Shown in pieces: positions 24,813 to 39,653 of a DNA stretch of 64,000 nt; positions within the stretch are counted from its first letter, which is position 1; every line of letters begins with the position of its first letter. This DNA comes from Candidatus Poribacteria bacterium (GTDB taxonomy: Bacteria > Poribacteria > WGA-4E > WGA-3G), in the NCBI GenBank assembly GCA_028820845.1, contig JAPPII010000011.1:1-64000 (forward strand), given 5' to 3'. The notes under the pieces are model-generated. The model did not search any database and was not told where the DNA came from. It saw only the letters and a list, made by a program, of their open reading frames with translations. Made by a program: the position numbers and the translations under genes.

Positions 24813-24877
24813 CAATGGAACTCAACACGAATGGGGGTCCGAGCCCGCACGCCAGCGGCGTGTTATGTCTATTCTTC

Positions 24878-25981
24878 ATGGATGAAGCACATAGAACCTT
24901 TATGAAACGCGCCTTGAATTTAGCGCGTCGGGGCAAAGGACGCACAAGTCCAAATCCGCTCGTCGGTGCGGTTGTTGTGAAAGCCGGACGGGTCGTCGGT
25001 GAAGGGTATCATCAAAAAGCCGGAACCCCACACGCCGAGGTCCACGCCTTGAACGCCGCAGGCGAAAACGCCAGAGGTGCGACGCTTTATGTGAACCTTG
25101 AACCGTGTTGCCATTGGGGACGAACACCGCCTTGCACGGAGGCAGTCCTTCAAGCAGGTGTTGCTGAAGTCTATGTTGCAGAGGTTGATCCGAATCCGAG
25201 TGTCGCAGGCAACGGGATCCGTCAGTTGCAAGAGGCGGGGATTCGTGTCCATGTCGGCACGTGTGCTGAAGAAGCAGCGCAGTTGAATGAGGTCCATAGG
25301 AAATACATTCAGACCGGCAAGCCGTTTGTTATTTTGAAAACCGCCATGAGCCTTGACGGGAAAATCGCCACTGCCTCAGGCGAATCGCAGTGGATTACCT
25401 CTGAGGGATCACGACAGCGCGGACATGAAATTCGCGACGCAGTAGATGCTATACTCGTCGGCAAAGGGACAGTTGACCGCGATAATCCGGCATTGACGAC
25501 GCGGCTTCAGGATAGAGAAGGACAGGACGCAACTCGAATTGTGTTAGATTCACACGGGAGAACCTCCACGGACGCACGCATCTTCAACCCTGCGAGCAGT
25601 GCAGGAGTTATTATTGCTGTCACACCGGACGCACCCGCGAAGAACATCGGTGCTCTTGAAAAGGTGGGGGCAGAAGTAATAATCGTTCCAGAGGAAAAGG
25701 GTAAAGTGTGTTTCGAGCGTTTGATGGAGATATTGGGTGCGCGTGAGATAACAAGCGTCTTGGTGGAAGGTGGTGGGGAAGTCAATGCCTCGGCGATAGC
25801 CACAGGCGTTGTAGATAAGATGATGTGTTTTATCGCACCGAAATTGATTGGTGGGCGGGATGCCCCTGGACCTATCGGCGGTGAAGGGCTTGCAAGTTTA
25901 AAGGATGTACCGCATTTGAAACGCGTCAGTATCACACCTATTTCTGATGCTGCCGACTTTCTCATTGAGGGGTATCTGTAG
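24878..25981 (+). CDS. ribD: Riboflavin biosynthesis protein RibD (deaminase/reductase)
   Basis: Bifunctional diaminohydroxyphosphoribosylaminopyrimidine deaminase and 5-amino-6-(5-phosphoribosylamino)uracil reductase, about 367 residues, two middle steps of riboflavin synthesis. Zinc site of the deaminase: HAEVHAL and PCCHWGRTPPC; SPNPLVGAVVV precedes it. The reductase half shows KTAMSLDGKIAT, SQWITS, DAILVGKGTVDRDNP and VLVEGGGEVN. The ATG at 24878 is chosen because RibD proteins start about ten residues before the first helix (MDEAHRTFMKRALNLA); an upstream ATG at 24815 is possible. One nucleotide separates it from ribE. Confidence 0.95.
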   Translation: MDEAHRTFMKRALNLARRGKGRTSPNPLVGAVVVKAGRVVGEGYHQKAGTPHAEVHALNAAGENARGATLYVNLEPCCHWGRTPPCTEAVLQAGVAEVYVAEVDPNPSVAGNGIRQLQEAGIRVHVGTCAEEAAQLNEVHRKYIQTGKPFVILKTAMSLDGKIATASGESQWITSEGSRQRGHEIRDAVDAILVGKGTVDRDNPALTTRLQDREGQDATRIVLDSHGRTSTDARIFNPASSAGVIIAVTPDAPAKNIGALEKVGAEVIIVPEEKGKVCFERLMEILGAREITSVLVEGGGEVNASAIATGVVDKMMCFIAPKLIGGRDAPGPIGGEGLASLKDVPHLKRVSITPISDAADFLIEGYL

Positions 25982-25982
25982 C

Positions 25983-26654
25983 ATGTTTACCGGGATCGTT
26001 GAAGAACTTGGAACCGTTGGAAGTATCCAACGCAAATCGGAAGGTGCGATCCTTGAAATTCAGGCGAGTGAAGTCCTCACGGATGCGAAAGTCGGCGACA
26101 GTATTGCCGTTGACGGTGCTTGTCTTACGATCGTTTCTCTAACATCGGAGGCGTTCGCTGGGGATATATCTGCTGAAACCTTACGCCGGACGACGTTAGG
26201 TGAGCGGAAAGTCGGTGAACAGGTTAACTTGGAACGTTCACTCCGGTTAAGTGACAGACTGGGTGGTCATCTGGTCCTTGGACACGTGGATGAAGTGGCG
26301 ACAATCTGCGCTTGGAAAGACGAGGGCGATGCCTCTCTAATGCGGGTAACGATAAGCGATAATACCAGACGCTACATCACTTACAAAGGTTCTGTCACCG
26401 TTGACGGTATCAGTTTAACTGTGTCAGATGTTTCTAAAGATTCCTTTGAAGTCGCTTTGATTCCGCATACGAAGGCGGTCACGACTTTGGATATGAAACG
26501 GACTGGGACCAGGGTCAATCTTGAAGTCGATCTTATTGCGCGTTATATTGAAACACTTCTGAAAAATAGTGACGAGGTGTCGGGTTGGACTGAGCAAACC
26601 GGTTCCGAGACCCTCAATTTGAGTTTTTTAGCGAAACACGGCTATATGGATTGA
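25983..26654 (+). CDS. ribE: Riboflavin synthase alpha chain
   Basis: Final enzyme of riboflavin synthesis, dismutating two lumazines. 223 residues with two homologous lumazine-binding barrels: the first from MFTGIVEELGTV through DSIAVDGACLTI and FAGDISAETL, the second from LGGHLVLGHVDEVATI through GSVTVDGISLTVSDV and VALIPHT. The ATG is 1 nt after the ribD stop, so the two are cotranslated; an upstream in-frame start inside ribD would add residues that do not fit the family. Also called ribC in some species. Confidence 0.96.
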   Translation: MFTGIVEELGTVGSIQRKSEGAILEIQASEVLTDAKVGDSIAVDGACLTIVSLTSEAFAGDISAETLRRTTLGERKVGEQVNLERSLRLSDRLGGHLVLGHVDEVATICAWKDEGDASLMRVTISDNTRRYITYKGSVTVDGISLTVSDVSKDSFEVALIPHTKAVTTLDMKRTGTRVNLEVDLIARYIETLLKNSDEVSGWTEQTGSETLNLSFLAKHGYMD

Positions 26655-26721
26655 TCATCGGCTGTCAGTTTTTGGTTAAGCGTCTGATGTTATAGCAGGC
26701 AACTTTTTTATGATAAAAGCC

Positions 26722-26878
26722 TTTCATAACTCAAAGGCGGTTGGACTTAACCGAAAACCCGGGGAATGCCATGCGGCATTCATACCGTTGATTTGTGAAA
26801 CGAAATTGTGAGTGATCAGCGAACAATTTGTCTGAGCTTTACATTGTGGAACGGTGACCAGATTTAATAATTAAAAAT
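26722..26878 (+). promoter_or_regulatory. Leader of ribBA, similar to the ribH leader
   Basis: The 5' part has TTTCATAAC-TCAAAG-GCGGTT...CTTAACC-GAAAACC, and the last 33 nt before the ATG (26846-26878) match the ribH leader with two differences, including the identical 20-mer GGAACGGTGACCAGATTTAA. An extra stem (GAATGCC/GGCATTC, about 26763-26777) sits in the middle. The classic FMN riboswitch consensus is not visible. It may be a regulatory RNA or a dispersed repeat. Confidence 0.5.
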
Positions 26879-28111
26879 ATGTCAAATACATTTAACACCA
26901 TTCCTGAAGCACTCTCTGCAATCCAAAATGGGGAACTGATTGTCGTTGTTGATGAACCCGATCGCGAGAACGAAGGCGATCTCATCATGGCGGCTGAAAA
27001 GGTGACGGCAAAGACTATCAATTTCATGGCGAAATATGGTCGTGGCTTGATATGTTTGCCTACCTGTTCAGAGAGGCTTGCCGAACTCGAACTCTACCCC
27101 ATGGTCGCATCGAATACCGCACAGATGCAAACCGCCTTCACTGTCACAATCGACGCGAAAGAGGTCACGACAGGTATCTCGGCGCAAGAGCGCGCCTATA
27201 CCATCCGCAAATTCATTGACCCAAACGCTACACCCTCAGACTTTGTCCGACCCGGACATATCTTCCCATTGGAAGCGAAACCGGGTGGCGTGCTCCGGCG
27301 CGCCGGTCATACAGAAGCCACTGTCGATTTGGCACGTATGGCAGGACTCTATCCCGCAGGCGTTCTCTGTGAAATACTCAACGAGGACGGAACTATGGCA
27401 CGCGTGCCTGAGTTGCTGGAGTTTGCTGCACAACACCGACTGAAAATTATTACAATTTCCGATTTGATTGCATATCGCCGTCAGACAGAAACCTTGATTC
27501 GGCGAGTTGCGACTGCAGATATTCCAACAGCACACGGTGAATTCAAACTTTACGCCTACGAAAGCACAGATACCGACGGCGAGAGTGTTGAAACCGATAA
27601 AACCCATATCGCACTCACAAAGGGCGATGTTGCCAACGCAGCACCTATCTTGGTCCGTGTCCATTCCCAATGCCTGACGGGTGATGTCTTTGGATCCCTC
27701 AGATGCGATTGTGGTGAGCAGCTTGAGATCGCCTTGCAAAATATTGAGAAAGAGGGCAGGGGTGTGCTCGTCTATATGCGCCAGGAAGGCAGAGGCATGG
27801 GACTCAAAGGGAAACTCCGCGCCTATCAGCTTCAGGACAGCGATGGATTGGACACCGTTGAAGCCAACGAACACCTCGGTTTTCCCGCCGATCTCCGAGA
27901 TTACGGCATCGGGGCGCAGATACTCGCCGACTTGGGGGTTCGGAAAATGCGATTAATGACGAACAACCCCCAGAAAGTTAGAGGGTTAGATGGACATGGA
28001 CTTGAAATTGTCGAACGCGTTCCTTTACAAACCGAGCCGAACCCCTTTAACCGCCGATATTTACAGACGAAACGTTCTAAACTTGGACACCTCCTCTTAG
28101 ACGAGGAATAA
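26879..28111 (+). CDS. ribBA: Bifunctional DHBP synthase / GTP cyclohydrolase II
   Basis: 410 residues supplying both branches of riboflavin synthesis. The N-terminal RibB half makes 3,4-dihydroxy-2-butanone 4-phosphate: acidic loop [30 protein letters not shown] and [17 protein letters not shown]. The C-terminal RibA half hydrolyses [25 protein letters not shown] gives the zinc cysteines, and [21 protein letters not shown] and LTNNP-type [11 protein letters not shown] complete it. Lies 224 nt after ribE with its own leader, so it may be regulated separately from ribD-ribE. Confidence 0.97.
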
Positions 28112-28197
28112 ATTTCTGTCTGGGATCAGGCATCCAGATTCCTGCTGGCTTGTTGTTCCCGAAAATTGTTCAAACTTTGGTGAATTGTTAGGAAACT

Positions 28198-28280
28198 TTT
28201 CATAACCCAGATGGGTTCAACTTAACCAGAAACCACCGTGAAACGAAGTGGAACGGTGACCAGATTTAATAGTTAAAAAA
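28198..28280 (+). promoter_or_regulatory. Leader of ribH, similar to the ribBA leader
   Basis: TTTCATAAC, a small stem CCCAGATGGG, CTTAACC-AGAAACC, then CCAC/GTGG closing CGTGAAACGAA, then GGAACGGTGACCAGATTTAA and TAGTTAAAA up to the ATG. It matches the ribBA leader in the same order, without the insert. Possible shared cis-regulatory RNA. Confidence 0.5.
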
Positions 28281-28766
28281 ATGGCAAATGTTTATGAAGG
28301 ACATCTTCTCGGCGAAGGTCTCACATTCGGGATTGTTGTAAGCCGATTCAATAGTTTTGTTACCGAAAAACTCCTTGGCGGTGCGTTGGATGCCCTAAAG
28401 CGACACGGCGTTGACTTGGATGAGGTCGATGTTTTTTGGACATCGGGTGCTTTTGAGATTCCCGCAATCGCCAAACGTCTTGCAGGCAGTGAAAAGTATG
28501 ATGCCGTTCTCTGCTTGGGTGCCGTCATCCGAGGCGCGACACCCCATTTTGACTACGTTGCTGCTGAGAGTGCGAAGGGAATTGCCCAAGCATCTGTCAA
28601 TACAGACACGCCAGTCATCTACGGGGTCATCACCACAGATACAATAGAGCAGGCACTTGAACGCGCTGGAATAAAGGCAGGAAACAAAGGCTTTGAAGCG
28701 GCTGTCGCTGGGATTGAGACGGCGAATCTTTACAGAACGATTGATAAAGCCCTGAATAATAGATAG
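28281..28766 (+). CDS. ribH: 6,7-dimethyl-8-ribityllumazine synthase
   Basis: Lumazine synthase, 161 residues, joining the ribBA and ribD products before riboflavin synthase. Motifs: [39 protein letters not shown] (with the catalytic His of the RGxTxHxDYV segment), [11 protein letters not shown] and AGNKGFEAA. It normally forms an icosahedral or pentameric assembly. The stop codon TAG straddles the left end of a MITE-like element: the T is host sequence and AG belongs to the element's terminal repeat. Confidence 0.96.
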
Positions 28767-29009
28767 GACTTACGCATTCCAGTGGTAGGTGCGGTTTGTA
28801 ACCGTACCTTATGCATTCCAGTGGTAGGTGCGGTTTGTAACCGTACCTTACGCATTCCAGTGGTAGGTGCGGTTTGTAACCGTACCTTATGTATTCCAGT
28901 GGTAGGTGCGGTTTGTAACCGCACCTTATGTATTCCAGTGGTAGGTGCGGTTTGTAACCGCACCGGCTGCGTCGGAATGAGTGAATTTCTTTGATTCTGC
29001 GTAAGTCCT
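28765..29009. mobile_element. MITE-like element carrying a hairpin array
   Basis: Terminal inverted repeats AGGACTTACGCA (28765-28776) and TGCGTAAGTCCT (28998-29009) are perfect over 12 bp. The 7-mer AATAGAT directly precedes the left end (28758-28764) and recurs 1 nt after the right end (29011-29017), as expected for a target duplication. No transposase is inside; the interior is mostly the 39-bp array. Confidence 0.7.
28773..28967. repeat. Tandem array, five 39-bp units, each a hairpin
   Basis: The motif GTGGTAGGTGCGGTTTGTAA starts at 28782, 28821, 28860, 28899 and 28938, exactly 39 nt apart. Each unit contains GGTGCGGTT-TGT-AACCGCACC or its AACCGTACC variant, so each folds alone. Units differ at 1-3 positions. 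39 is a multiple of three, so ORFs cross the array without stops; these are not genes. Confidence 0.93.
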
Positions 29010-29059
29010 GAATAGATAAACATAAGTTCAATACGGGAGCGTTTATTTTTTTAAATTTC

Positions 29060-29174
29060 CATCTGGAAGCCCGAACTTGTTCGGGACAGAACGAGGCGTT
29101 TATTTTTTTATAATTTGCATCTGGGAAGCCCGAACTTGTTCGGGACAGATCGCACGGACCCGAATAAATTCGGG
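29060..29174. repeat. Three hairpins of the CCCGAA/TTCGGG type
   Basis: CCCGAA-CTTG-TTCGGG at 29070-29085 and 29129-29144, and CCCGAA-TAAA-TTCGGG at 29159-29174. The first two lie in a directly repeated block of about 58 nt (GCGTTTATTTTTTT... CATCTGG...GGACAGA). Related copies are at 43466 and 60286. Confidence 0.8.
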
Positions 29175-29965: not shown

Positions 29966-31549
29966 ATGCTAACGTTTTTTCTCGCGCTTCTTGTCCTCCT
30001 CGTCAATGTTGGTACGCATCTGTTTCAGATGCAGGAATATTATATCGCAGTGAGCCACTGCTACTATGGCGTGATGATTCTCGCTGTGATATATGCTCGA
30101 CCTCGTGAACAAAACGTCTTGTTCGGCATTACGACGGTAGCCAATTGGGCTTATGTTTTTCGCTATCCGACGCACACTGAAAGCACGATTGTCGCGCTCC
30201 TTTATCCGTTTCTTGTCTTCGGTATTATCCGTGTCATTCGTCAATTCCAGACCCAACGCCGTAGCGGTGCCGCCGAAATAGAGGAGATTAACAGTGTCAA
30301 TGCGAATTTAGAGAAACAGGTCCGGGACATTTCTACGCTGTTTGAGGTGAGCCAAGCGGCGAACGCGAACCTTGAGTTAAAAGGTCTCTTTCAACGCATC
30401 ATTGAGATCCTCTCTAAACGGCTTGGTATATACCGCGGGGCTTTGCATCTCTATGAGAATGGGAAGGTCGTTACTTCGGTGGAAACCGTCTTAGGACTTA
30501 CACCCGCTGAGATGAAACGCGGCACTGACAATCAGATAGAAGACATTCAGCGACAGGTGCTTGAATCCGGTAAAGCGATCGGTGTTCCGCAAACTCGGAA
30601 TCCGCGGAGCTACGTTAAACTCTTTGAACCGGAGAGTGTTGAGTCGAAAGATATAATCGCCTTCTGGTGTATCCCGATTATTATAGAAGAGCAGGTCATC
30701 GGTACATTAACGATTGACAAGGCATCGGATGAATTTTCAGCAGAGGACGACCGACGACTATTGACGATTATTGCGTCAACCATCGCGCAACGGGTCAAGA
30801 TTCAACAAACAATTGACGCACTCGTCGAGTCAGAACGGATGGCAACGCTTGGCAGATTGGTCCGAACCATCGCACACGAGGTGCGAAATCCTTTGGGGAG
30901 TATCCGACTTGGCACCCAATTGCTTCAACATGCGGATACGGTGGAATCGGATTCTCAAGTCGAGACGTATTCCGATCAGATACAGCTCTCTCAAAATGAG
31001 ATTAAGGAATACACCGGAATCATTATCAAAGAGGTGGACAGACTCAACCGATTTATTGAGCAGTTGCTCGCCTTCAGTAAACCGGCGATGCAAGCCGCAA
31101 AACAGAAGGACATTCATCACCTACTTGAGAATAGTCTCGCTATCTGTCGTCCCGAATTAGAACATCGGGCAATCACAATCGCCACCCAATATGACAGCAA
31201 TTGCCCGCTGGTCAAGATAAATGAAGATGGGATTACACAGGTGCTCCTCAACCTGTTTTACAATGCTATTGAGGCAATGGATACAGAAGGGACATTAACG
31301 GTTCAGACAGAATACCTACAGGAAACTGGGGTCGTCCGGGTACGAATTCAGGATGATGGTCCCGGAATTTCGTCCGAAGATGTGCCAATGCTTTTTGATC
31401 CATTTTATACGACCAAACAAAAAGGGACGGGGCTCGGACTTTATATTAGCCAAAAAATTCTCGCCGAACACCAAGCGAGTATTGAAGTTGATCCGAACCT
31501 TGATGTCGGCACAGCCTTCATTATGTCGCTGCCAGTGAATAGCAGTTAG
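29966..31549 (+). CDS. Membrane sensor histidine kinase with GAF domain (NtrB-like)
   Basis: 527 residues. Three to four hydrophobic segments occupy about residues 1-95, a short helical linker leads to a GAF domain (about 115-275: LFEVSQAANANLELKGLFQR, CIPIIIEEQVIGTLTID), then HisKA and HATPase. H-box TIAHEVRNPLGSI gives the phosphorylated His (about 303); N-box LLNLFYNAIEAM, G1 QDDGPGIS and G2 GTGLGLYIS are intact. Phosphodonor for the sigma54 regulator encoded next, 78 nt downstream. The signal sensed is unknown. Confidence 0.93.
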   Translation: MLTFFLALLVLLVNVGTHLFQMQEYYIAVSHCYYGVMILAVIYARPREQNVLFGITTVANWAYVFRYPTHTESTIVALLYPFLVFGIIRVIRQFQTQRRSGAAEIEEINSVNANLEKQVRDISTLFEVSQAANANLELKGLFQRIIEILSKRLGIYRGALHLYENGKVVTSVETVLGLTPAEMKRGTDNQIEDIQRQVLESGKAIGVPQTRNPRSYVKLFEPESVESKDIIAFWCIPIIIEEQVIGTLTIDKASDEFSAEDDRRLLTIIASTIAQRVKIQQTIDALVESERMATLGRLVRTIAHEVRNPLGSIRLGTQLLQHADTVESDSQVETYSDQIQLSQNEIKEYTGIIIKEVDRLNRFIEQLLAFSKPAMQAAKQKDIHHLLENSLAICRPELEHRAITIATQYDSNCPLVKINEDGITQVLLNLFYNAIEAMDTEGTLTVQTEYLQETGVVRVRIQDDGPGISSEDVPMLFDPFYTTKQKGTGLGLYISQKILAEHQASIEVDPNLDVGTAFIMSLPVNSS

Positions 31550-31627: not shown

Positions 31628-33061
31628 ATGGTTAAAAGTATGTCAAATGTAGTGCTTATTGCTGACGATGATGATAGTCTTCGACACATCCTCGCGGCCA
31701 CCCTTGAAAAAGCAGGATACAAGACCCTCAGAGCGCGAAATGGGAATGAAACTTTGGCGCATGTCAAGCGCGCCGATATTGATGTTATTCTGCTCGATAT
31801 TTGGTTAGGCGATGTCAATGGACTTGAATTAATCGAGGAAATCCAAAAATATAATAGCACCGCCGCAATCGTTGTAATTACCGCACACGGGACGACGCAG
31901 ACGGCCATTGATGCAGCGAAGCAACGGGCGTATGGGTATCTGACAAAACCGATTGATCAGAGGCAGCTCCTGGATCTTGTGTCGCGCGCTGCCGCCGCTA
32001 CGAACCAAACGAAGGATGTCAAAACATCGGTGTTGCCTGATGTCAATAGACAAGGCAGAATGGTCGGGCAGAGTCCAGCGATGCAGGAGGTATATCTTAA
32101 GATTGGGCGCGCTGCGGTTAGCGACGAAACGGTTCTTGTTTTAGGTGAAAGCGGGACAGGTAAGGAGTTGGTTGCCCAATTGATACACCAAAACAGCCAT
32201 CGGGCACACAATCCTTTCGTCATCGTCGATTGTGGTGCTATGCCGTCGAGTCTCATAGAGAGCACACTCTTTGGACACGTCAAAGGGGCGTACACCGATG
32301 CGCACACCGCAAGGACAGGGAAATTTCAGCAGGCAGATGGCGGGACTATCTTTCTCGATGAAATCGGAGAATTGCCGGTTGAGGTCCAAATGAAACTGCT
32401 CCGTGTGCTACAGGAGCGCGAAGTAGAGCCGATGGGTGGGATGGAAACGCACCCTATTGATGTTCGTATTATCGCCGCCACCAACCGCAGCCTTGAAGCC
32501 GCAATTGCGCAGAAGGCGTTCAGGGAGGATCTTTACTATCGTCTCAACGTCATCCCGATCTCTCTACCACCGCTCCGTGAACGGAAAGAGGACATCTCAG
32601 AACTCATAGATCTGTTTACCCACCGGTTCGTCGAGGAATACCAGCTCCCGGAAATCCGCATCTCTACAGAGGTCGTCAAACTCCTCACGGCTTATGAATG
32701 GCCCGGCAACGTTCGCGAATTGGAAAATGCTATCAAACGTGCATTGGTGATGTGTGCTGGACAGATGCTGCTGCCTGAGCATTTCGACCCGATTCTGAAT
32801 GAACCGAGTTCGCTGAGTCCTGCGCAACAAGGAAACCTTGATGCACAGATTTATGGGTTGCTTCATGCGTATGTGGAACAACACATGGAATCCGAAACGC
32901 CGCCGGGTGAACTTTACGCTGAGATCCGCGCTATCTTTGAGAAGCCCCTCTTTAAAATTGTGCTGGAACACACCAACGGAAATCGAAGTAAGGCGGCAGA
33001 CATCCTCGGTATTAACCGAAACACACTCCATACGAAACTTGTTGAGTATAAATTGGTTTAA
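31628..33061 (+). CDS. Sigma54-dependent response regulator (NtrC family) with GAYTDA loop
   Basis: 477 residues. Receiver domain: acidic pair DDDD near the start, phosphoacceptor Asp in VILLDIW (about 56), TAHG and KPID. AAA+ domain: Walker A GESGTGKE, Walker B GGTIFLDEIGEL, PPLRERKEDI, and YEWPGNVRELENAI. The sigma54-contact loop reads GAYTDA (about residue 220) rather than the usual GAFTGA. A Fis-type helix-turn-helix ends the protein (NRSKAADILGINRNTLHTKL). Start may be the internal ATG at 31640. Partner of the kinase encoded upstream. Confidence 0.94.
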   Translation: MVKSMSNVVLIADDDDSLRHILAATLEKAGYKTLRARNGNETLAHVKRADIDVILLDIWLGDVNGLELIEEIQKYNSTAAIVVITAHGTTQTAIDAAKQRAYGYLTKPIDQRQLLDLVSRAAAATNQTKDVKTSVLPDVNRQGRMVGQSPAMQEVYLKIGRAAVSDETVLVLGESGTGKELVAQLIHQNSHRAHNPFVIVDCGAMPSSLIESTLFGHVKGAYTDAHTARTGKFQQADGGTIFLDEIGELPVEVQMKLLRVLQEREVEPMGGMETHPIDVRIIAATNRSLEAAIAQKAFREDLYYRLNVIPISLPPLRERKEDISELIDLFTHRFVEEYQLPEIRISTEVVKLLTAYEWPGNVRELENAIKRALVMCAGQMLLPEHFDPILNEPSSLSPAQQGNLDAQIYGLLHAYVEQHMESETPPGELYAEIRAIFEKPLFKIVLEHTNGNRSKAADILGINRNTLHTKLVEYKLV

Positions 33062-33062
33062 A

Positions 33063-33237
33063 GGTTATAAGTTAACGTGAGTTCGATAATAGGTTCTACT
33101 TGTAGCGCAAACTGTTAGTTTGCGCAGGACACGCTACAAACTAAAAAGTTTATGGCACAATTTATGTTGTAACTGGGTGCAGATTGTCCGTTTAGCACTG
33201 ACGAAGTGTTTAATCGAATTGATGTTAACTTATAACC
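33063..33237. mobile_element. Second MITE-like element (175 bp)
   Basis: Perfect 14-bp terminal repeats GGTTATAAGTTAAC (33063-33076) and GTTAACTTATAACC (33224-33237); pairing extends inward to 24 bp with three mismatches (GTGAGTTCGA against ATCAATTCGA). It contains a perfect hairpin GCGCAAACT-GTT-AGTTTGCGC (33105-33125). No ORF. It starts 2 nt after the stop of the sigma54 regulator gene. Confidence 0.65.
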
Positions 33238-33282
33238 AACAACCCTAAATAAATTGAAGGACAACAAGGAAAAATAAAACTA

Positions 33283-33585
33283 ATGGATTTAGGAAAAGTT
33301 ATTGGCACTGTCGTCGCGACCCGAAAAGATCCGAGCTTGGAAGGCACACGTCTCTTGCTTGTACAACCTTTAGACGAGAAATATAAGCCCATTTCTGAAC
33401 CGCTCGTGGCAGTTGACACCTTACACGACGCAGGTGTGGATGAAATTGTCTACATCGTTACTGGCGGTGATGCCATGGGCATTGTACCGGGAAAACGGAT
33501 GCCGGTTGATGTTGCCATCGTTGGCATTGTCGATTCGCTTTCTCTGCTTGATGAAGCAGACACAGGCTCAGAAGTGGGAAATTGA
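33283..33585 (+). CDS. EutN/CcmL-type microcompartment vertex protein, copy 1
   Basis: Pentameric BMC-P shell protein of 100 residues. The family pattern is clear: MDLGKVIGTVVATRKDPSLEGTRLL, LVQPLD, LVAVDTLHDAGVDEIVYIV, GDAMGIV and DVAIVGIVDSL. Such proteins cap the vertices of bacterial microcompartments. The next gene, 3 nt downstream, encodes a second one. No hexameric BMC-H protein or encapsulated enzyme is in the window. Confidence 0.93.
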   Translation: MDLGKVIGTVVATRKDPSLEGTRLLLVQPLDEKYKPISEPLVAVDTLHDAGVDEIVYIVTGGDAMGIVPGKRMPVDVAIVGIVDSLSLLDEADTGSEVGN

Positions 33586-33588
33586 AAA

Positions 33589-33876
33589 ATGTACCTTGCC
33601 AAAGTAATCGGAAAAGCCGTTTCTGTCGTTAAACATCCTGCATACCAAAATCGGACGCTGCTGCTTATTCAACCGCTGAGTCTGAAATCGCAACTTGTTC
33701 GCACCCCAACGATTGCTGTTGACTATGTGGGTGCGGGTGAGGGGGACACCGTGATTGTAGGAGCAGGTCCTGGTGTCGCACAAGAGGTCTTCGGTGTTGA
33801 AGATGCACCGATTCGTGAGCTCGTCATGGGTATTGTAGACCATTTTGATATAACTTTTCAGGAGGAGGAAGCATGA
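33589..33876 (+). CDS. EutN/CcmL-type microcompartment vertex protein, copy 2
   Basis: 95-residue BMC-P protein, diverged from the preceding one: MYLAKVIGKAVSVVKHPAYQNRTLLLIQPL, AVDYVGAGEGDTVIVGAGPG and VMGIVDHFDI. The glycine-rich AGPG loop at the pore end replaces GGDAMG of copy 1. The last codons overlap the start of the lipoprotein gene by 4 nt. Two different vertex proteins in tandem suggest paralogous pentamers for one shell or for two shell types. Confidence 0.93.
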   Translation: MYLAKVIGKAVSVVKHPAYQNRTLLLIQPLSLKSQLVRTPTIAVDYVGAGEGDTVIVGAGPGVAQEVFGVEDAPIRELVMGIVDHFDITFQEEEA

Positions 33877-34463
33877 AACGCGCTATTACACTTTTCGGTA
33901 CTGTTTTGTTTTTCTGCTTACACTTCAGTGCTTGTAGAATGGCACAGGTGTTATCGACCCAATACAGCCAAAATATTGCACAAGCCGCCTACGGCACGGA
34001 GTCAAATCATCCGGGTATGAACGATGGGAACCTTGAGACGCTTGCCACACTTCCGGCGGAAAATGAGCGGAACTTTGTTATCCGGTTTGCTGAGATCCAT
34101 CCCGTGCGAAAGATCGTTATTCACAATGGGAACCTTTTCCGGTTTGAAATGCAATATTTAAACGATGAAACTGGAGAGTGGGAGACTTTTGATACGATTA
34201 TTCAGCGACGTAATATTGGCGACGAACGCGCACAAGCCGAATTCGTTTTTGATAGATTGAACTTTCAGACGCGGATGATTCGGATTGTTGTTACCCGAAC
34301 TGTTGATGATGTAATCGTGAATAAGATGATCGCGGAACCCGATGATAAAATTGTTGACCAGCGGAAAACGCTTGCCGGTTTCTACTACCCACATTATCGT
34401 GTCATGCAGCCCGCGATGGCTCAAATTCGAGAAATTGAGATTTACCATCTTGCTAATCGCTAA
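33873..34463 (+). CDS. Predicted lipoprotein, discoidin-like beta-sandwich
   Basis: 196 residues. N-terminal hydrophobic leader ends in lipobox FSAC (Cys 21), so it should be lipidated. NIAQAAYGTESNHPGMNDGN followed by FVIRFAEIHPVRKIVIHNGN and WETFDTI resembles an F5/8 type C (discoidin) galactose-binding fold; the assignment is by pattern only. Its ATG overlaps the stop of the second vertex protein gene (ATGA), which couples it to the microcompartment genes although a lipoprotein cannot be inside a shell. Confidence 0.75.
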   Translation: MKRAITLFGTVLFFCLHFSACRMAQVLSTQYSQNIAQAAYGTESNHPGMNDGNLETLATLPAENERNFVIRFAEIHPVRKIVIHNGNLFRFEMQYLNDETGEWETFDTIIQRRNIGDERAQAEFVFDRLNFQTRMIRIVVTRTVDDVIVNKMIAEPDDKIVDQRKTLAGFYYPHYRVMQPAMAQIREIEIYHLANR

Positions 34464-34565: not shown

Positions 34566-37500
34566 ATGCAAGTTCGCCCGATAAAACGTTGCATAATTAC
34601 CTGTTTTGTATTTTTTTCCCTTCTCTTTTTTCTCGGAACAGATCCCTTTTGGTCTTTCACCTACATCGGTTCGTCCAGCAATGCAGAGGCAGCACCAGTT
34701 TCGCCCAGCAATCGGCATGCCAGAACTGCCGTGCGTGAAGGCGTAGGCGCACAACGAGAGATTGAATTGGTACGGACAACACCGCAAGGCGTAACGATTC
34801 AACTTTTCATCCCAGCGTCCGATTTTGAAATACGGACAGAGGGCGATAACGACGATCAATTTCAAGTATCTCGTGTTGAAACGCAGACTGTCTCTTTTCC
34901 GGGATGCCGTTTTACTGTCCAGTCTCCGGGTGCGCTACGACTCCCTGTGCAGTCTACCTTCATCAGTGTCCCCGTAGATGCCAATTTTCAAGTGCGTGTT
35001 GTTGAACAGAATTTTAGCACGCATAAGATCGCTGCAGATGTTCTGCCTTCCGATCTTCCCTCCTTCCATTCGGACTCCAACACCCCTAAAACCGACCGCT
35101 TTTTTCCTGCCAATCTCGTAGAGACCAGAGAAGCGGGTTGGATCCGGGAGAACCGGGTCCTTCCAATTCAATTCAATCCGGTCCAATACAATCCTGTGCG
35201 TCGGGAGTTGCGACTTTATCACAGGCTTATCGTTGAAGTTCGTTTTCTCCGGTCAGGTGAAGCGTTGTTAGCACAACGGGGACCCTTGATGCCTGAGTCC
35301 GCTGCTTACGATGCGATTTTTGAAAGCGTCTTGGTGAATCCGCAAGATGCCAGGCAGTGGCGTGGGACGACCTTCCGAGTTCCACAAGCACCAAGTATTG
35401 CTGCCATAGCACCTCGCCATAAACTCAGTATTACTCAGGATGGGATGTATAGCGTTACTGGACGAGACTTGGAGGCAGTCGGGGTTGATATAGGCGCGAT
35501 TACACCCAGGACGTTGACAGTGACAAACAGAGGGAAACAGGTGCCAATCTTTGTTCGAGGTGAGGGCGACGGAAGACTCAATCCAACGGATGAAATTATT
35601 TTCTACGGCGAGCAGCTTCATGGAGAAGCAAGTTATATCAACCCGTTTTCTGATGAGAATGTGTATTGGCTCTCGTGGAACGCCGGACCCGGAAGCCGAA
35701 TGGGGACGCGGACCTCTCTTGATGGAAGCGTTGACGCTCAAAGCTACCCGCACTTTCTCACACGTGCTCACTTTGAAAAAGATAGCCACTTTAGAAGGTT
35801 TCCCAATGCGAACCTGACGGAGGACCAGAGGTATCAGGAATTCAGTCAAGGACTGCAGGAGCGTTGGTTTACTTTAGCGGAACTGCCACCACTGCCAAAT
35901 GACAGTTGGTTCTGGGCACAATTGACCGCCCCTGAGTCAAAACCGTTCGGTGTTACCCTCACGGGTGTCGCGGAGACTGCTGTACCCGCAACAATACGGA
36001 TCGGATTTTATGGGAGATCTAACACAGAACACCAAGCGGATGTATGGCTAAACGACGCGGTTAGCCTCGGCGAGGTACGTTGGAAAGGTGAAGCCGAATA
36101 TCAGCTTCAGAATCAACGACCGCAATCTTTTCTCCAGAATGGACGGAATGTCATTCGTATCATCAATCCCGGAAGTAGCGATCAACTGCTGGATATCGTT
36201 CTGCTTAACTGGATTCAGATTGATTATCGCCGGACTTTTGAAGCGAAGGGGAATGTGCTACCCTTTGCTATCACGCCCTTTCCTGATGAAACTGGAGCTA
36301 TCAACCCAAACTTTGAGGTCGTTTTAGAGAATTTCTCTACGCCTGACATAGAAATTTATGGTATTGACGGGACCCGTTATGTCGGTTTAGCACCGATTAT
36401 TGACGATTCTGCGTCTGAGACTTACCGACTCCCGTTCCGTTCAACGCAGATTCGACCGAAGGATGTGGATGATACCGCCATCCAATATATCGCACTCGCG
36501 CGTAACCGGTTCCAAAAACCGAAAATTTCGGTAGACACGCCGTCCGATTTACGTAGCACGCACAACGCCGCGGATTACATCCTCATTACACACAAAAGTT
36601 TCATTGAAGATGTTCAACCACTTGCCGATTTTCGTAATCAGCAAGGTATGCGGACCAAAGTTGTCGATGTCCAAAATATCTACGACGAATTTAATCACGG
36701 CATCCTCAACCCGAATGCGATCCGTGAGTTCCTCAGTTACGCCTACGACAATTGGCAGCCGCCTGCCCCAACTTACGTCTTCCTCGTCGGTGATACACAT
36801 ATTGATCTTAAGAACCAACCCAATTTCGTTCCGACAACGCAGGTGCAAATCCCAGGATACGGTGCTTCGGCAAGCGACCACCAATTCGTTACTTTTCGAG
36901 GCACAGACAGTTTCCCAGATATGCTGATTGGACGGATGCCAGCGAACAATCGTGTAGATGTCCGTATCTTTGTTGAACGGACAATCAACTATGAAACGAC
37001 CTCGCAGGTCGGCCCGTGGCACAAGAAACTTCTCATGCTTGCCGGTTCGGATCTTCGGTTTCACTCTCAGACAGACCGACTTATCTCTCGTAATCAACTC
37101 AACGGTCGATATGAAACTGAACGTATCTACGCACCGCACACAGAGGAAGCAACTTTCGATGAACGGATCCGATCGCCTATCGCGAGGCGCGTGATTGACG
37201 GTTTCAACGACGGTGCCAGCCTCGTTAACTATATCGGACACGGTGGCGGTGGTATCTGGTCATCCAGTCGGATGCTTGACTTTGAAGATCCTGAGCAGAA
37301 CTTAACCAATATTTCACAACTCCCGTTGGTTATCAGTATGACCTGTTACACAGGTTCCTTTGACAGCAATAAAAATAGCCTTGTTGAGGAGCTCCTCCGA
37401 TCTGAAAATGGCGGTGCGATTGCAGTCATTGGCGCAACCAGCATCGGGCTGTTAGACGGTGATTATCTGCTGAACTTGGAAATTTTCAATGTTATCTTCA

Positions 37501-39653
37501 AACAACGAACGCAGCATATAGGGGCGGTGCTCGCTGAAGCCAAGACGCAGTTTCTTATCAACGCTCCGGGGTATCTCGATCTCGCTGAAGTCTTTACACT
37601 TTTCGGGGACCCAGCGACTCGGCTGAAACTGCCGAACAAACAGATGCAAGTTGAAGTAGAAATCGGGACCTCGCCGAGTCGAGAGACTTTACTGACTGTC
37701 TCTGGGACATTACCCGATCGCACTTTTAGCGGAGATGCCGAGATTATCGTTGTGCCTGCGATTGAAGAGGCGGTTGACATGCCGTCGGAACAGGAAAATG
37801 TCACTGTTACCAACGGACGGTTCACCACAGAAATAGAAATCCCAGCGAGTGTTGAATTTGATGTCGGCGATGTACAAGTTTACGCTTGGAATGCCGATGA
37901 AGATTTAATCGGTCATGCCTCCTATAATGTTTTATCTCGATACGTTGATAATGTCCGTATTGCACCTTATCCGGTTGAACCGCATCAACCTGTTCACCTT
38001 TATACAGAAGTGTTGGATGAAAGCGGTATTGAAGAACTAACGCTTTTCTGGAGTTGGGACGGCATCGAGTTTTTCACGATTCCTGTGAGTCATCAGACCG
38101 GGACAACCTATAAAAGCGAACGCCCGATTCCGGGATACCCTGAAGGGGACCTCATTGACTATTACTTAGCAGTGAAGGTAGGAGATGGACGGACGTTGCA
38201 AACAGAGGTCGTCACTTATGAGTTTGGACAGGCCAGATCTGAGGTCGATCTTCTCCTTTTGGACCAGACGATCGCTTGGACGACAACACCGCCGTTTGTG
38301 CTCTCGGCGCAAGTCCGCAATCAAGGCAGCGCACCTGCCCGAAATGTACCTGTCCGCTTCTATCTGCAAACCTTGAGCCCTGAAGCTGCTGCGGCTATTC
38401 CGCATACCACTTCCGTCTCAACGATTGAGGATTTACAGAACGCGACACCGCTTGGAGATGTTCAGATTATTCCCGAAATCTTGCCCGGCAGTCAAGGCGT
38501 TGCAAGGGTGCCGTGGGAACCGACACCGGGGGAATATCTTATCTCTGTCTACGTAGATCCACCGTCTGAGGAACTTCCGCGTGGGAGTATCCTTGAGCAG
38601 CGGGAACTAAATAACAGCGCAGCGAAACGGTTTACGGGGAATCGGTTCGTTCTTACACCGGATACGCTTGATCAACCGATCCGAAGCGCAGACGGAACTT
38701 TCCAAGTTACTGTGCCATCGGACAACCTTCAAACCACTACGATACTAACCTATTCGGAAGAAGCCTTGACGATTACAAACCAACCCGATATCGCTGCGGT
38801 TTCGGAAGCTGCGCCACAGGTTGCCTATCACCTCGATGTGGCTGAACAGACGGAGTTGGTGGCGACTGTTACGTTCCTAAAAGGGGAAACCAGTGACGAT
38901 GCATACATTTATAGGCGAGACGATGATAACGGCAATTGGGTGCGGGTAGGTCAGGAGACTGCTGATGACGAGCATATCTCCGCGGAGGTCGAGTTACCGG
39001 GGACGTTCGCGATGTTATCCCATAGCGATTCAACACCGCCTTCAGTTGAACTAACCTTTGAGCATCAGGGCTTCATTGATGGGGATTATGTCTCGGATAC
39101 GCCTGTTATCTCTGCACGGATTGAGGATGCGAACGGCGTTGACTCGCGTTCAGCACACATCATCCTCACGAAGAACGGGCAGCGCGTGCCAGAAGACGAA
39201 TATGTAATTGCTGCGTCACCAACGAATAACAATCTCTTGTTGGTAACCTATACGCCTGTTTTGGAACCTGGAGAGTACCGCGTCCGGCTACAGGCACAGG
39301 ACACAAACGGCAATGTATCAGACACCGAGCGTACGGGAACAGTCGCTGGTGAGTTTGAGATTGCGAATATTGCTAACTTTCCGAACCCTTTCACACCCAG
39401 AAGCGGCACGCATTTTGCTTACTATCTCACGGAGAGTGCTGACGAGGTGAGCCTGAATATCTACACAATCACGGGTCGGCGTATCGTGGCGATTGACACG
39501 CTTGATGCCTCTGTCTCTTACAACGAATACCACTACGACGGCTACGATGCCGACGGCGAACCGCTTGCGAACGGTGTTTATCTCTACAAATTCACAGCAC
39601 AGAAAGGCGATATCCGTAAACAGAAGGTCGGGAAAATCGCCGTGCGGAAATAG
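34566..39653 (+). CDS. Secreted C25 (gingipain-like) cysteine peptidase with FlgD-like C-terminal domain
   Basis: 1695 residues. A signal peptide precedes a long N-terminal prodomain-like region (to about 660). The C25 peptidase domain follows (TDRFL-type start YILITHKSFIEDVQPLADFR, YVFLVGDTH, GRMPANNRVDV); catalytic His is in YIGHGGGGIW (about 891) and catalytic Cys in VISMTCYTGSFD (about 926). Several Ig-like/CARDB-like domains follow, with a final FlgD-like/type IX sorting-like domain (NFPNPFTPRSG, IYTITGRRI, YDGYDADGEPLANGVYLYKF). PorU, the type IX secretion sortase, belongs to this peptidase family. It could be a PorU-like processing enzyme or simply an exported protease. Confidence 0.9.
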   Translation: MQVRPIKRCIITCFVFFSLLFFLGTDPFWSFTYIGSSSNAEAAPVSPSNRHARTAVREGVGAQREIELVRTTPQGVTIQLFIPASDFEIRTEGDNDDQFQVSRVETQTVSFPGCRFTVQSPGALRLPVQSTFISVPVDANFQVRVVEQNFSTHKIAADVLPSDLPSFHSDSNTPKTDRFFPANLVETREAGWIRENRVLPIQFNPVQYNPVRRELRLYHRLIVEVRFLRSGEALLAQRGPLMPESAAYDAIFESVLVNPQDARQWRGTTFRVPQAPSIAAIAPRHKLSITQDGMYSVTGRDLEAVGVDIGAITPRTLTVTNRGKQVPIFVRGEGDGRLNPTDEIIFYGEQLHGEASYINPFSDENVYWLSWNAGPGSRMGTRTSLDGSVDAQSYPHFLTRAHFEKDSHFRRFPNANLTEDQRYQEFSQGLQERWFTLAELPPLPNDSWFWAQLTAPESKPFGVTLTGVAETAVPATIRIGFYGRSNTEHQADVWLNDAVSLGEVRWKGEAEYQLQNQRPQSFLQNGRNVIRIINPGSSDQLLDIVLLNWIQIDYRRTFEAKGNVLPFAITPFPDETGAINPNFEVVLENFSTPDIEIYGIDGTRYVGLAPIIDDSASETYRLPFRSTQIRPKDVDDTAIQYIALARNRFQKPKISVDTPSDLRSTHNAADYILITHKSFIEDVQPLADFRNQQGMRTKVVDVQNIYDEFNHGILNPNAIREFLSYAYDNWQPPAPTYVFLVGDTHIDLKNQPNFVPTTQVQIPGYGASASDHQFVTFRGTDSFPDMLIGRMPANNRVDVRIFVERTINYETTSQVGPWHKKLLMLAGSDLRFHSQTDRLISRNQLNGRYETERIYAPHTEEATFDERIRSPIARRVIDGFNDGASLVNYIGHGGGGIWSSSRMLDFEDPEQNLTNISQLPLVISMTCYTGSFDSNKNSLVEELLRSENGGAIAVIGATSIGLLDGDYLLNLEIFNVIFKQRTQHIGAVLAEAKTQFLINAPGYLDLAEVFTLFGDPATRLKLPNKQMQVEVEIGTSPSRETLLTVSGTLPDRTFSGDAEIIVVPAIEEAVDMPSEQENVTVTNGRFTTEIEIPASVEFDVGDVQVYAWNADEDLIGHASYNVLSRYVDNVRIAPYPVEPHQPVHLYTEVLDESGIEELTLFWSWDGIEFFTIPVSHQTGTTYKSERPIPGYPEGDLIDYYLAVKVGDGRTLQTEVVTYEFGQARSEVDLLLLDQTIAWTTTPPFVLSAQVRNQGSAPARNVPVRFYLQTLSPEAAAAIPHTTSVSTIEDLQNATPLGDVQIIPEILPGSQGVARVPWEPTPGEYLISVYVDPPSEELPRGSILEQRELNNSAAKRFTGNRFVLTPDTLDQPIRSADGTFQVTVPSDNLQTTTILTYSEEALTITNQPDIAAVSEAAPQVAYHLDVAEQTELVATVTFLKGETSDDAYIYRRDDDNGNWVRVGQETADDEHISAEVELPGTFAMLSHSDSTPPSVELTFEHQGFIDGDYVSDTPVISARIEDANGVDSRSAHIILTKNGQRVPEDEYVIAASPTNNNLLLVTYTPVLEPGEYRVRLQAQDTNGNVSDTERTGTVAGEFEIANIANFPNPFTPRSGTHFAYYLTESADEVSLNIYTITGRRIVAIDTLDASVSYNEYHYDGYDADGEPLANGVYLYKFTAQKGDIRKQKVGKIAVRK

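Follow-up and report, generated by a model that had tools for sequence, protein, structure and literature searches.

The window analysed here is a 64,000-nt stretch of a Candidatus Poribacteria genome (contig JAPPII010000011.1, positions 1 to 64,000, forward strand). It carries two tandem genes of the BMC-P (EutN/CcmL) family of microcompartment vertex proteins, P1 (33283–33585, forward strand, 100 aa) and P2 (33589–33876, forward strand, 95 aa), followed by a gene for a lipoprotein-like exported protein (33873–34463, forward strand). P1 and P2 are 3 nt apart, and P2 overlaps the lipoprotein gene by 4 nt. Both proteins match PF03319 over the whole length of the profile (positions 1–83) and above its curated cut-off of 25 bits, P1 with 94.8 and P2 with 74.9 bits, and they share 32% identity over 88 residues; the initial annotation had thus described the two diverged copies and their coupling to the lipoprotein gene accurately. 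Among solved structures, the best relatives of P1 are CcmL and EutN/CcmL-type chains, and P2 has relatives there too. From this family membership, P1 and P2 would be expected to form pentamers capping a shell. Relatives of P1 are found within Poribacteria and in Sumerlaeota and Omnitrophota. P2 is the more conserved of the two, with a mean column identity of 83% (18 sequences) versus 65% for P1 (20 sequences), and contains the motifs DYVGAGEGD and APIREL.

The lipoprotein begins with a signal segment followed by a cysteine at position 21, which is invariant across 40 sequences and which we take to mark a lipobox. No Pfam or NCBIfam family matched this ORF, and a comparison with the sequences of solved structures returned no credible match. 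An AlphaFold2 model based on 40 sequences (pLDDT 75.6, pTM 0.66) consists of a signal helix and an all-beta domain, and a Foldseek search gave 36 matches at E ≤0.001 (best E 7.8e-5), to CBM32/discoidin domains; chains made up of a single CBM32 domain had TM-scores by target of 0.43–0.60, with high rmsd. The modelled fold is therefore galactose-binding-like, and it is plausible that the protein is exported and sugar-binding-like. Downstream of it, in the window as in many relatives, lies a gene for a PorU-like C25 peptidase with a T9SS-type tail (34566–39653, forward strand; PF01364 and the PorU and Por_Secre_tail models).

The pair is preceded by a conserved context that includes ribD, ribE, ribBA and ribH (24815–28766, forward strand; NCBIfam equivalogs); hisH (NCBIfam) lies upstream as well. 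The gap between ribH and hisH contains a tandem repeat of five 39-nt copies with 96% matches (28769–28964), and a second repeat of 1.9 copies of 59 nt lies at 29039–29149. Next come a GAF-containing sensor histidine kinase (29966–31549, forward strand; PF02518, PF00512, PF01590) and an NtrC-type response regulator with receiver, sigma-54 AAA+ and Fis HTH domains (31628–33061, forward strand; PF00072, PF00158, PF02954). Among the Poribacteria loci with enough upstream sequence, a regulator of this type with >50% identity precedes the pair in 59 of 66, and the histidine kinase is present in 56 of 61; the regulator lies 18–60 nt from P1 in 19 of 59 relatives. The kinase and regulator genes are probably co-transcribed with P1–P2. 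A scan of the window for tRNA genes and Rfam families returned nothing.

A shared NtrC/sigma-54 regulon of the scattered shell genes described below was considered, using a simple sigma-54 consensus score over nine stretches located before P1, the regulator and other scattered shell genes. The score reached shuffle P values of 0.022 before P1, 0.024 before the regulator and ≥0.07 at the other stretches. The candidate site before P1 has the wrong spacing, as judged by eye, and a score of at least 11 of 14.9 was reached in only 6 of 59 relatives, the sites in those six being unrelated save in the near-identical locus L121 and the pair L166/L167. The common regulon consequently found no support.

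Between the regulator and P1 lies a MITE-like inverted-repeat element (33042–33258; 46-nt arms, 72% complementary), which the initial annotation had noted correctly and suspected of having rearranged the locus. The genome contains at least one full copy and 43 partial matches (40 of 98 candidates scored). Among 69 Poribacteria relatives compared by BLAST, the full element precedes P1 only in L121, whose P2 is 100% identical to that of the window; in L122, a partial element lies elsewhere and the gene order is unchanged. Since the gene order is the same in relatives without the element, its role as the cause of a rearrangement was rejected, and the element is outside the system and irrelevant to it.

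To survey the pair across genomes, P2 was used to scan named genomes, and the best 80 of 87 confirmed loci were retained, comprising 70 from Poribacteria and 10 from outside the phylum, so that relatives outside the phylum are undersampled. In 66 of the 70 Poribacteria loci listed, P1 is the gene immediately preceding P2. Among the remaining four, a contig end truncates three (in L192, part of P1 is retained), and L183 genuinely lacks P1 at this position. The dN/dS ratios of P1, P2 and the lipoprotein range from 0.04 to 0.12 in six pairwise comparisons, with similar values for the kinase and regulator. The conserved order and these ratios argue that P1–P2 is no chance pair of ORFs. Of the 65 Poribacteria loci whose sequence extends far enough downstream, 58 have the lipoprotein gene after P2 (misses: L180, L183, L186–L189 and L192), so the grouping of pair and lipoprotein is conserved there, but it fails in deep branches, where the lipoprotein gene does not adjoin the pair. 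A rhomboid protease gene (Pfam) is placed between P2 and the lipoprotein gene in 13 loci, and P1–P2 is kept without a lipoprotein in L180, L186, L187 and L189. The lipoprotein is probably a conserved operon neighbour outside the compartment, and no part of the shell.

The window's genome is assembled in 125 contigs and 95.5% complete, with the pair on contig C11. A profile search of this genome detected PF00936, the family of the hexameric shell proteins (BMC-H), only on contigs C61 and C115 (two matches) and not on C11, confirming that no hexamer gene is nearby. PF03319 has three matches: P1, P2 and a further paralogue, P3, on C26. The five shell genes (two BMC-H and three BMC-P) are therefore distributed over four places, none of which has both types. 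Downstream of BMC-H_A (C61) come genes for a PduL-type phosphate propanoyltransferase and for a 244-aa protein with weak similarity to TIGR02536, and downstream of BMC-H_B (C115) one for an aldehyde dehydrogenase (AldDH; NF011927, 569 bits). In PduL, AldDH and the 244-aa protein, a short N-terminal amphipathic stretch of the encapsulation-peptide kind was recognized by eye. Of the two possibilities that the initial annotation had offered for the missing hexamers, their encoding elsewhere is thus borne out, with two BMC-H genes beside PduL and AldDH and P3 on a further contig; a different purpose for the pentamers gained no support. Genes of the DUF5683-SnoaL-Wzz type also lie near BMC-H_A, and in two class-level genomes (G003 and G004; loci L094 and L095) a P1 gene without P2 stands before genes of these types, which hints that P1 and BMC-H_A may once have shared a neighbourhood. 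Two further observations concern the surroundings of these genes. A citrate-synthase-like protein (518 aa, PF00285) and, as judged by eye, an isocitrate-dehydrogenase-like ORF are divergently encoded beside BMC-H_B and AldDH (L007:6139–9063), and a 5-formyltetrahydrofolate cyclo-ligase gene directly follows P3 (L008:6227–7117), many of the relatives inspected having a match to the same enzyme in the vicinity of P3.

Across the phylum, PF03319 was found in 83 of 84 genomes and PF00936 in 79, with exactly three matches in 71 and exactly two in 64 genomes, respectively, these exact counts being made by eye. Among the five genomes without PF00936, four are 61–79% complete, and G002, at 91%, has neither family. 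In six single-contig genomes (G023, G046, G079, G081, G082 and G083), more than 350 kb lie between the pair and the closest BMC-H gene, which shows that the scattering does not stem from assembly. Five of the six genomes of genus g8 have two BMC-H genes separated by ~25 kb, which recalls group D of Kamke et al. (2014; PMC3909097), as far as it is described in the sections of that paper used here.

Scattered groups of PF00936 and PF03319 genes in Poribacteria were reported in that study as groups A–C, with no function assigned to them in those sections. Riboflavin genes are part of group B, and two-component systems occur in three of the four groups. Both in group B and in the window, the PF03319 genes lie near riboflavin genes and apart from the PF00936 genes, and PF03319 genes outnumber PF00936 genes in the published groups as they do here. 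The window's locus is equated with group B on the strength of the riboflavin genes that the paper mentions in its text (PMC3909097). In addition to what those sections report, the BMC-P triplet is here followed into other phyla and a linkage to class II aldolases is described. In the relevant part of Axen et al. (2014; PMC4207490), Poribacteria loci are termed 'satellite-like', and PduL or AldDH is mentioned; a satellite locus in their sense has contiguous shell genes of PF03319 only or of PF00936 only, as is the case for P1–P2. The FRAG types of Sutter et al. (2021; PMC8217296), as summarized in that paper, occur in many candidate phyla and have shell genes in several places, a BMC-P triplet, in some cases a proximal AldDH, and no obvious signature enzyme. 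The window's genome likewise has its shell genes in separate places and no defined locus, and the six single-contig genomes agree. With five shell genes in four places, and hexamers and pentamers apart, either term, 'satellite-like' or FRAG, can be applied. The FRAG triplet is composed of one grey-clade, one orange-clade and one other member (PMC8217296). P1, P2 and P3 resemble it as three paralogue groups, which were defined from our own tree and not from the clades of Sutter et al. This paper was not among the literature that we found to name both Poribacteria and the microcompartment.

Outside Poribacteria, P3, P1 and P2 are contiguous in that order in 4 of the 10 loci listed: L191 (Sumerlaeota), L197 (RI_285), L198 (Omnitrophota) and L199 (Armatimonadetes). 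In L199, a class II aldolase gene and two BMC-H genes precede P3-P1-P2, after which come a flavoprotein-like gene, a further ORF and AldDH. This is the one instance in which a complete BMC locus, named by the initial annotation as evidence against a stand-alone pair, adjoins the group; none of the Poribacteria loci read has such an arrangement. Of the remaining loci, L196 contains only P1–P2, the Sumerlaeota loci L190 and L193–L195 contain P2 without P1 or P3 at the threshold used, and L200 (Clostridium magnum) has only a P3-like gene, accompanied by BMC-H, PduL and AldDH. In a BMC-P tree of 89 rows and 99 columns with long branches, a single branch separates P2 from all other rows, and another does so for P3 (SH-aLRT 91 and 81, neither starred). 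P1 requires two changes in the free tree, the Armatimonadetes row falling outside it, and a single P1 group is not rejected (p-AU 0.79). Together these data provide moderate evidence that the three BMC-P paralogues predate Poribacteria.

A candidate for the signature enzyme is suggested by deep-branching relatives. An aldolase of the FucA/AraD type (class II) adjoins BMC-H and AldDH in G004, G005, G008, G009, G011 and G012, which are the class-level genomes whose AldDH-linked BMC-H locus was fetched; in G004, one ORF separates the aldolase from BMC-H/AldDH. The other class-level genomes (n = 4) have no PF00936 match. The HxH site is present in the four FucA-type aldolases checked, and all six end in encapsulation-peptide-like tails, such as DEELIDKITKMVLKELERS and DDEIADIVARVTTKVLEALNG. 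In G001, the deepest genome with BMC-H, the order is H-H-AldDH, with no aldolase on the 5.9-kb contig. Neither L007, the H_B-AldDH locus of the window's genome, nor L237, that of G023, gave an aldolase match. A class II aldolase within a shell locus, as in the PVM type, is therefore found in the six class-level genomes and not in G001 or the window's genome. G002, which has no shell gene, contains three PF00596 matches, so a class II aldolase is not specific to the compartment. G016 and the six genomes of genus g8 (f3) have a second, FucA-type protein, with no link to shell genes by coordinates.

The single PF00596 protein of the window's genome is a remote RhaD-like protein, encoded on C70 away from the shell genes. 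Such proteins were found in 70 of 84 genomes, all of them members of the window's order, which has 72 genomes in the set and lacks the protein in G059 and G030. In all three genomes of family f4, the gene is directly downstream of P3, at a distance of 9 nt in L232 (the same locus as L037), where it is followed, as on C70, by CapA-like and membrane-protein ORFs recognized by eye. No aldolase gene is beside the window's P1–P2 pair, and this one family has it by P3. The protein scores 56.9 bits against the NCBIfam rhamnulose-1-phosphate aldolase model (cut-off 170) and has HLQ, recognized in 30 of 34 loci, in place of the HxH of RhaD; the pattern used also gave three matches of other triplets, taken as chance. 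Given the HLQ and the remote score, its activity as an aldolase is uncertain. An encapsulation-peptide-like helix in this protein overlaps the end of the RhaD match.

We consider it likely that the pair is a satellite locus and that its two paralogues serve as vertices of a class II aldolase metabolosome encoded at dispersed sites. At the level of sequence, the firm part of this reading is the complement of two BMC-H and three BMC-P genes, the location of PduL, AldDH and the 244-aa protein beside BMC-H, and conservation within the phylum. P1, P2 and P3 would cap the vertices of one shell, assembled from all the scattered parts and made of two BMC-H proteins encoded elsewhere. Inside it, the class II aldolase would split a sugar phosphate, AldDH would convert the released aldehyde to acyl-CoA, and PduL would convert the acyl-CoA to acyl phosphate. 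The signature enzyme of the deep-branching families would be the FucA-type aldolase with its C-terminal encapsulation-peptide-like helix, and the candidate in the window's order is the RhaD-like protein. Counting against this reading are the position of the only PF00596 protein of the window's genome away from its shell genes, the HLQ triplet, remote score and overlapping helix of that protein, the aldolase-free 5.9-kb contig of G001, the class II aldolases of G002, the six loci outside Poribacteria that do not show the triplet, the moderate tree support, and a search of the window's genome that did not find L-rhamnose isomerase. A lone pentamer pair would then be a piece of a published dispersed organelle and would involve no new use of vertex proteins.

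More tentatively, and with somewhat less than even confidence, we hypothesize how this arrangement came about: the scattered compartment of Poribacteria would be a class II aldolase metabolosome whose FucA-type enzyme with an encapsulation peptide was kept near BMC-H/AldDH in deep families, and was swapped in the window's order for the RhaD-like protein, whose metal site is altered (HLQ), at first tied to P3 and later moved away, while the locus broke up into about five chromosomal places and P1–P2 ended behind the two-component NtrC operon. A class II aldolase (PF00596) is the signature of the PVM, ACI and GRM5 metabolosomes as presented in two surveys (PMC4207490, PMC8217296), and the proposed reading shares it. 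ACI is also similar in having a C-terminal encapsulation peptide on the aldolase, a BMC-P triplet and an AldDH encoded in a satellite locus. In contrast to these three types as described there, which have a main locus, none was seen in Poribacteria, and the window's genome has no aldolase beside its shell genes. Another candidate phylum, Latescibacteria, has been assigned a fucose/rhamnose BMC (PMC4454575, in the part consulted). The FRAG types were reported without an obvious signature enzyme in the corresponding section of PMC8217296, whereas the deep relatives here suggest a class II aldolase. The scattering of Poribacteria shell genes is already published; the proposal for their function is unproven and is new within the searches made, since a literature search, with subscription journals and preprints outside its scope, found no paper assigning an aldolase to the Poribacteria compartment. 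Should the proposal be correct, cleavage of a sugar phosphate in Poribacteria would take place within a compartment, and comparison with outgroups might be tried in the same way for further compartments with scattered genes.

A different substrate was proposed by Jahn et al. (2016; PMC5087111), who, in the sections used here, derived degradation of 1,2-propanediol at the cytoplasmic membrane for BMC-A from PduL, expression and immunolocalization; applied to the dispersed compartment as a whole, this would leave P1 and P2 as vertices. The BMC-H signal was seen in rings at membranes (PMC5087111), a picture unlike free polyhedra that counts against the reading preferred here. PduL is present in the window's genome too. 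However, according to the pertinent part of PMC4207490, many metabolosomes have PduL and AldDH, and the two enzymes do not identify the substrate; class II aldolase genes, moreover, lie beside shell genes in relatives. We therefore regard propanediol as an unlikely substrate.

It is less likely still that P1, P2 and the lipoprotein serve something other than a compartment, for example a membrane- or signalling-linked assembly. The lipoprotein gene directly downstream in 58 of 65 loci and the membrane rings reported for a BMC-H protein in that part of PMC5087111 would be consistent with such a role, but the lipoprotein looks exported, is separated from P2 by the rhomboid gene in 13 loci and is missing from four loci that keep P1–P2, and in L199 the P1/P2 genes accompany P3, BMC-H and AldDH. 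That the genes are a decaying remnant of a lost microcompartment, as might be read from their scattering, the transposase genes in clusters B and D, the lack of function mentioned as a possibility by Kamke et al. (PMC3909097, in the sections used) and the MITE-like element at the locus, is very improbable in view of the dN/dS of 0.04–0.12 for P1 and P2 in six pairs, a two-H, three-P complement common in the phylum, and the transcripts reported for the BMC-A region in the part of PMC5087111 consulted.

With regard to the dispersed class II aldolase metabolosome, which we prefer, three observations on the window's genome and its relatives may be added. A DeoC-type aldolase (SPU type) was considered as the signature enzyme and set aside: the one PF01791 match, a 354-aa protein on C124, has a prenyl-synthase-like ORF beside it, as judged by eye, and no shell gene in its 3.8-kb locus. 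L-rhamnose isomerase (RhaA) was not found in the window's genome, where four FGGY kinases score over the cut-off. In L119 (1021–2103) and its relatives, the RhaD-like aldolase ends, after a variable stretch, in a conserved SENVYNYP-like motif, which by its sequence looks like a short binding motif.
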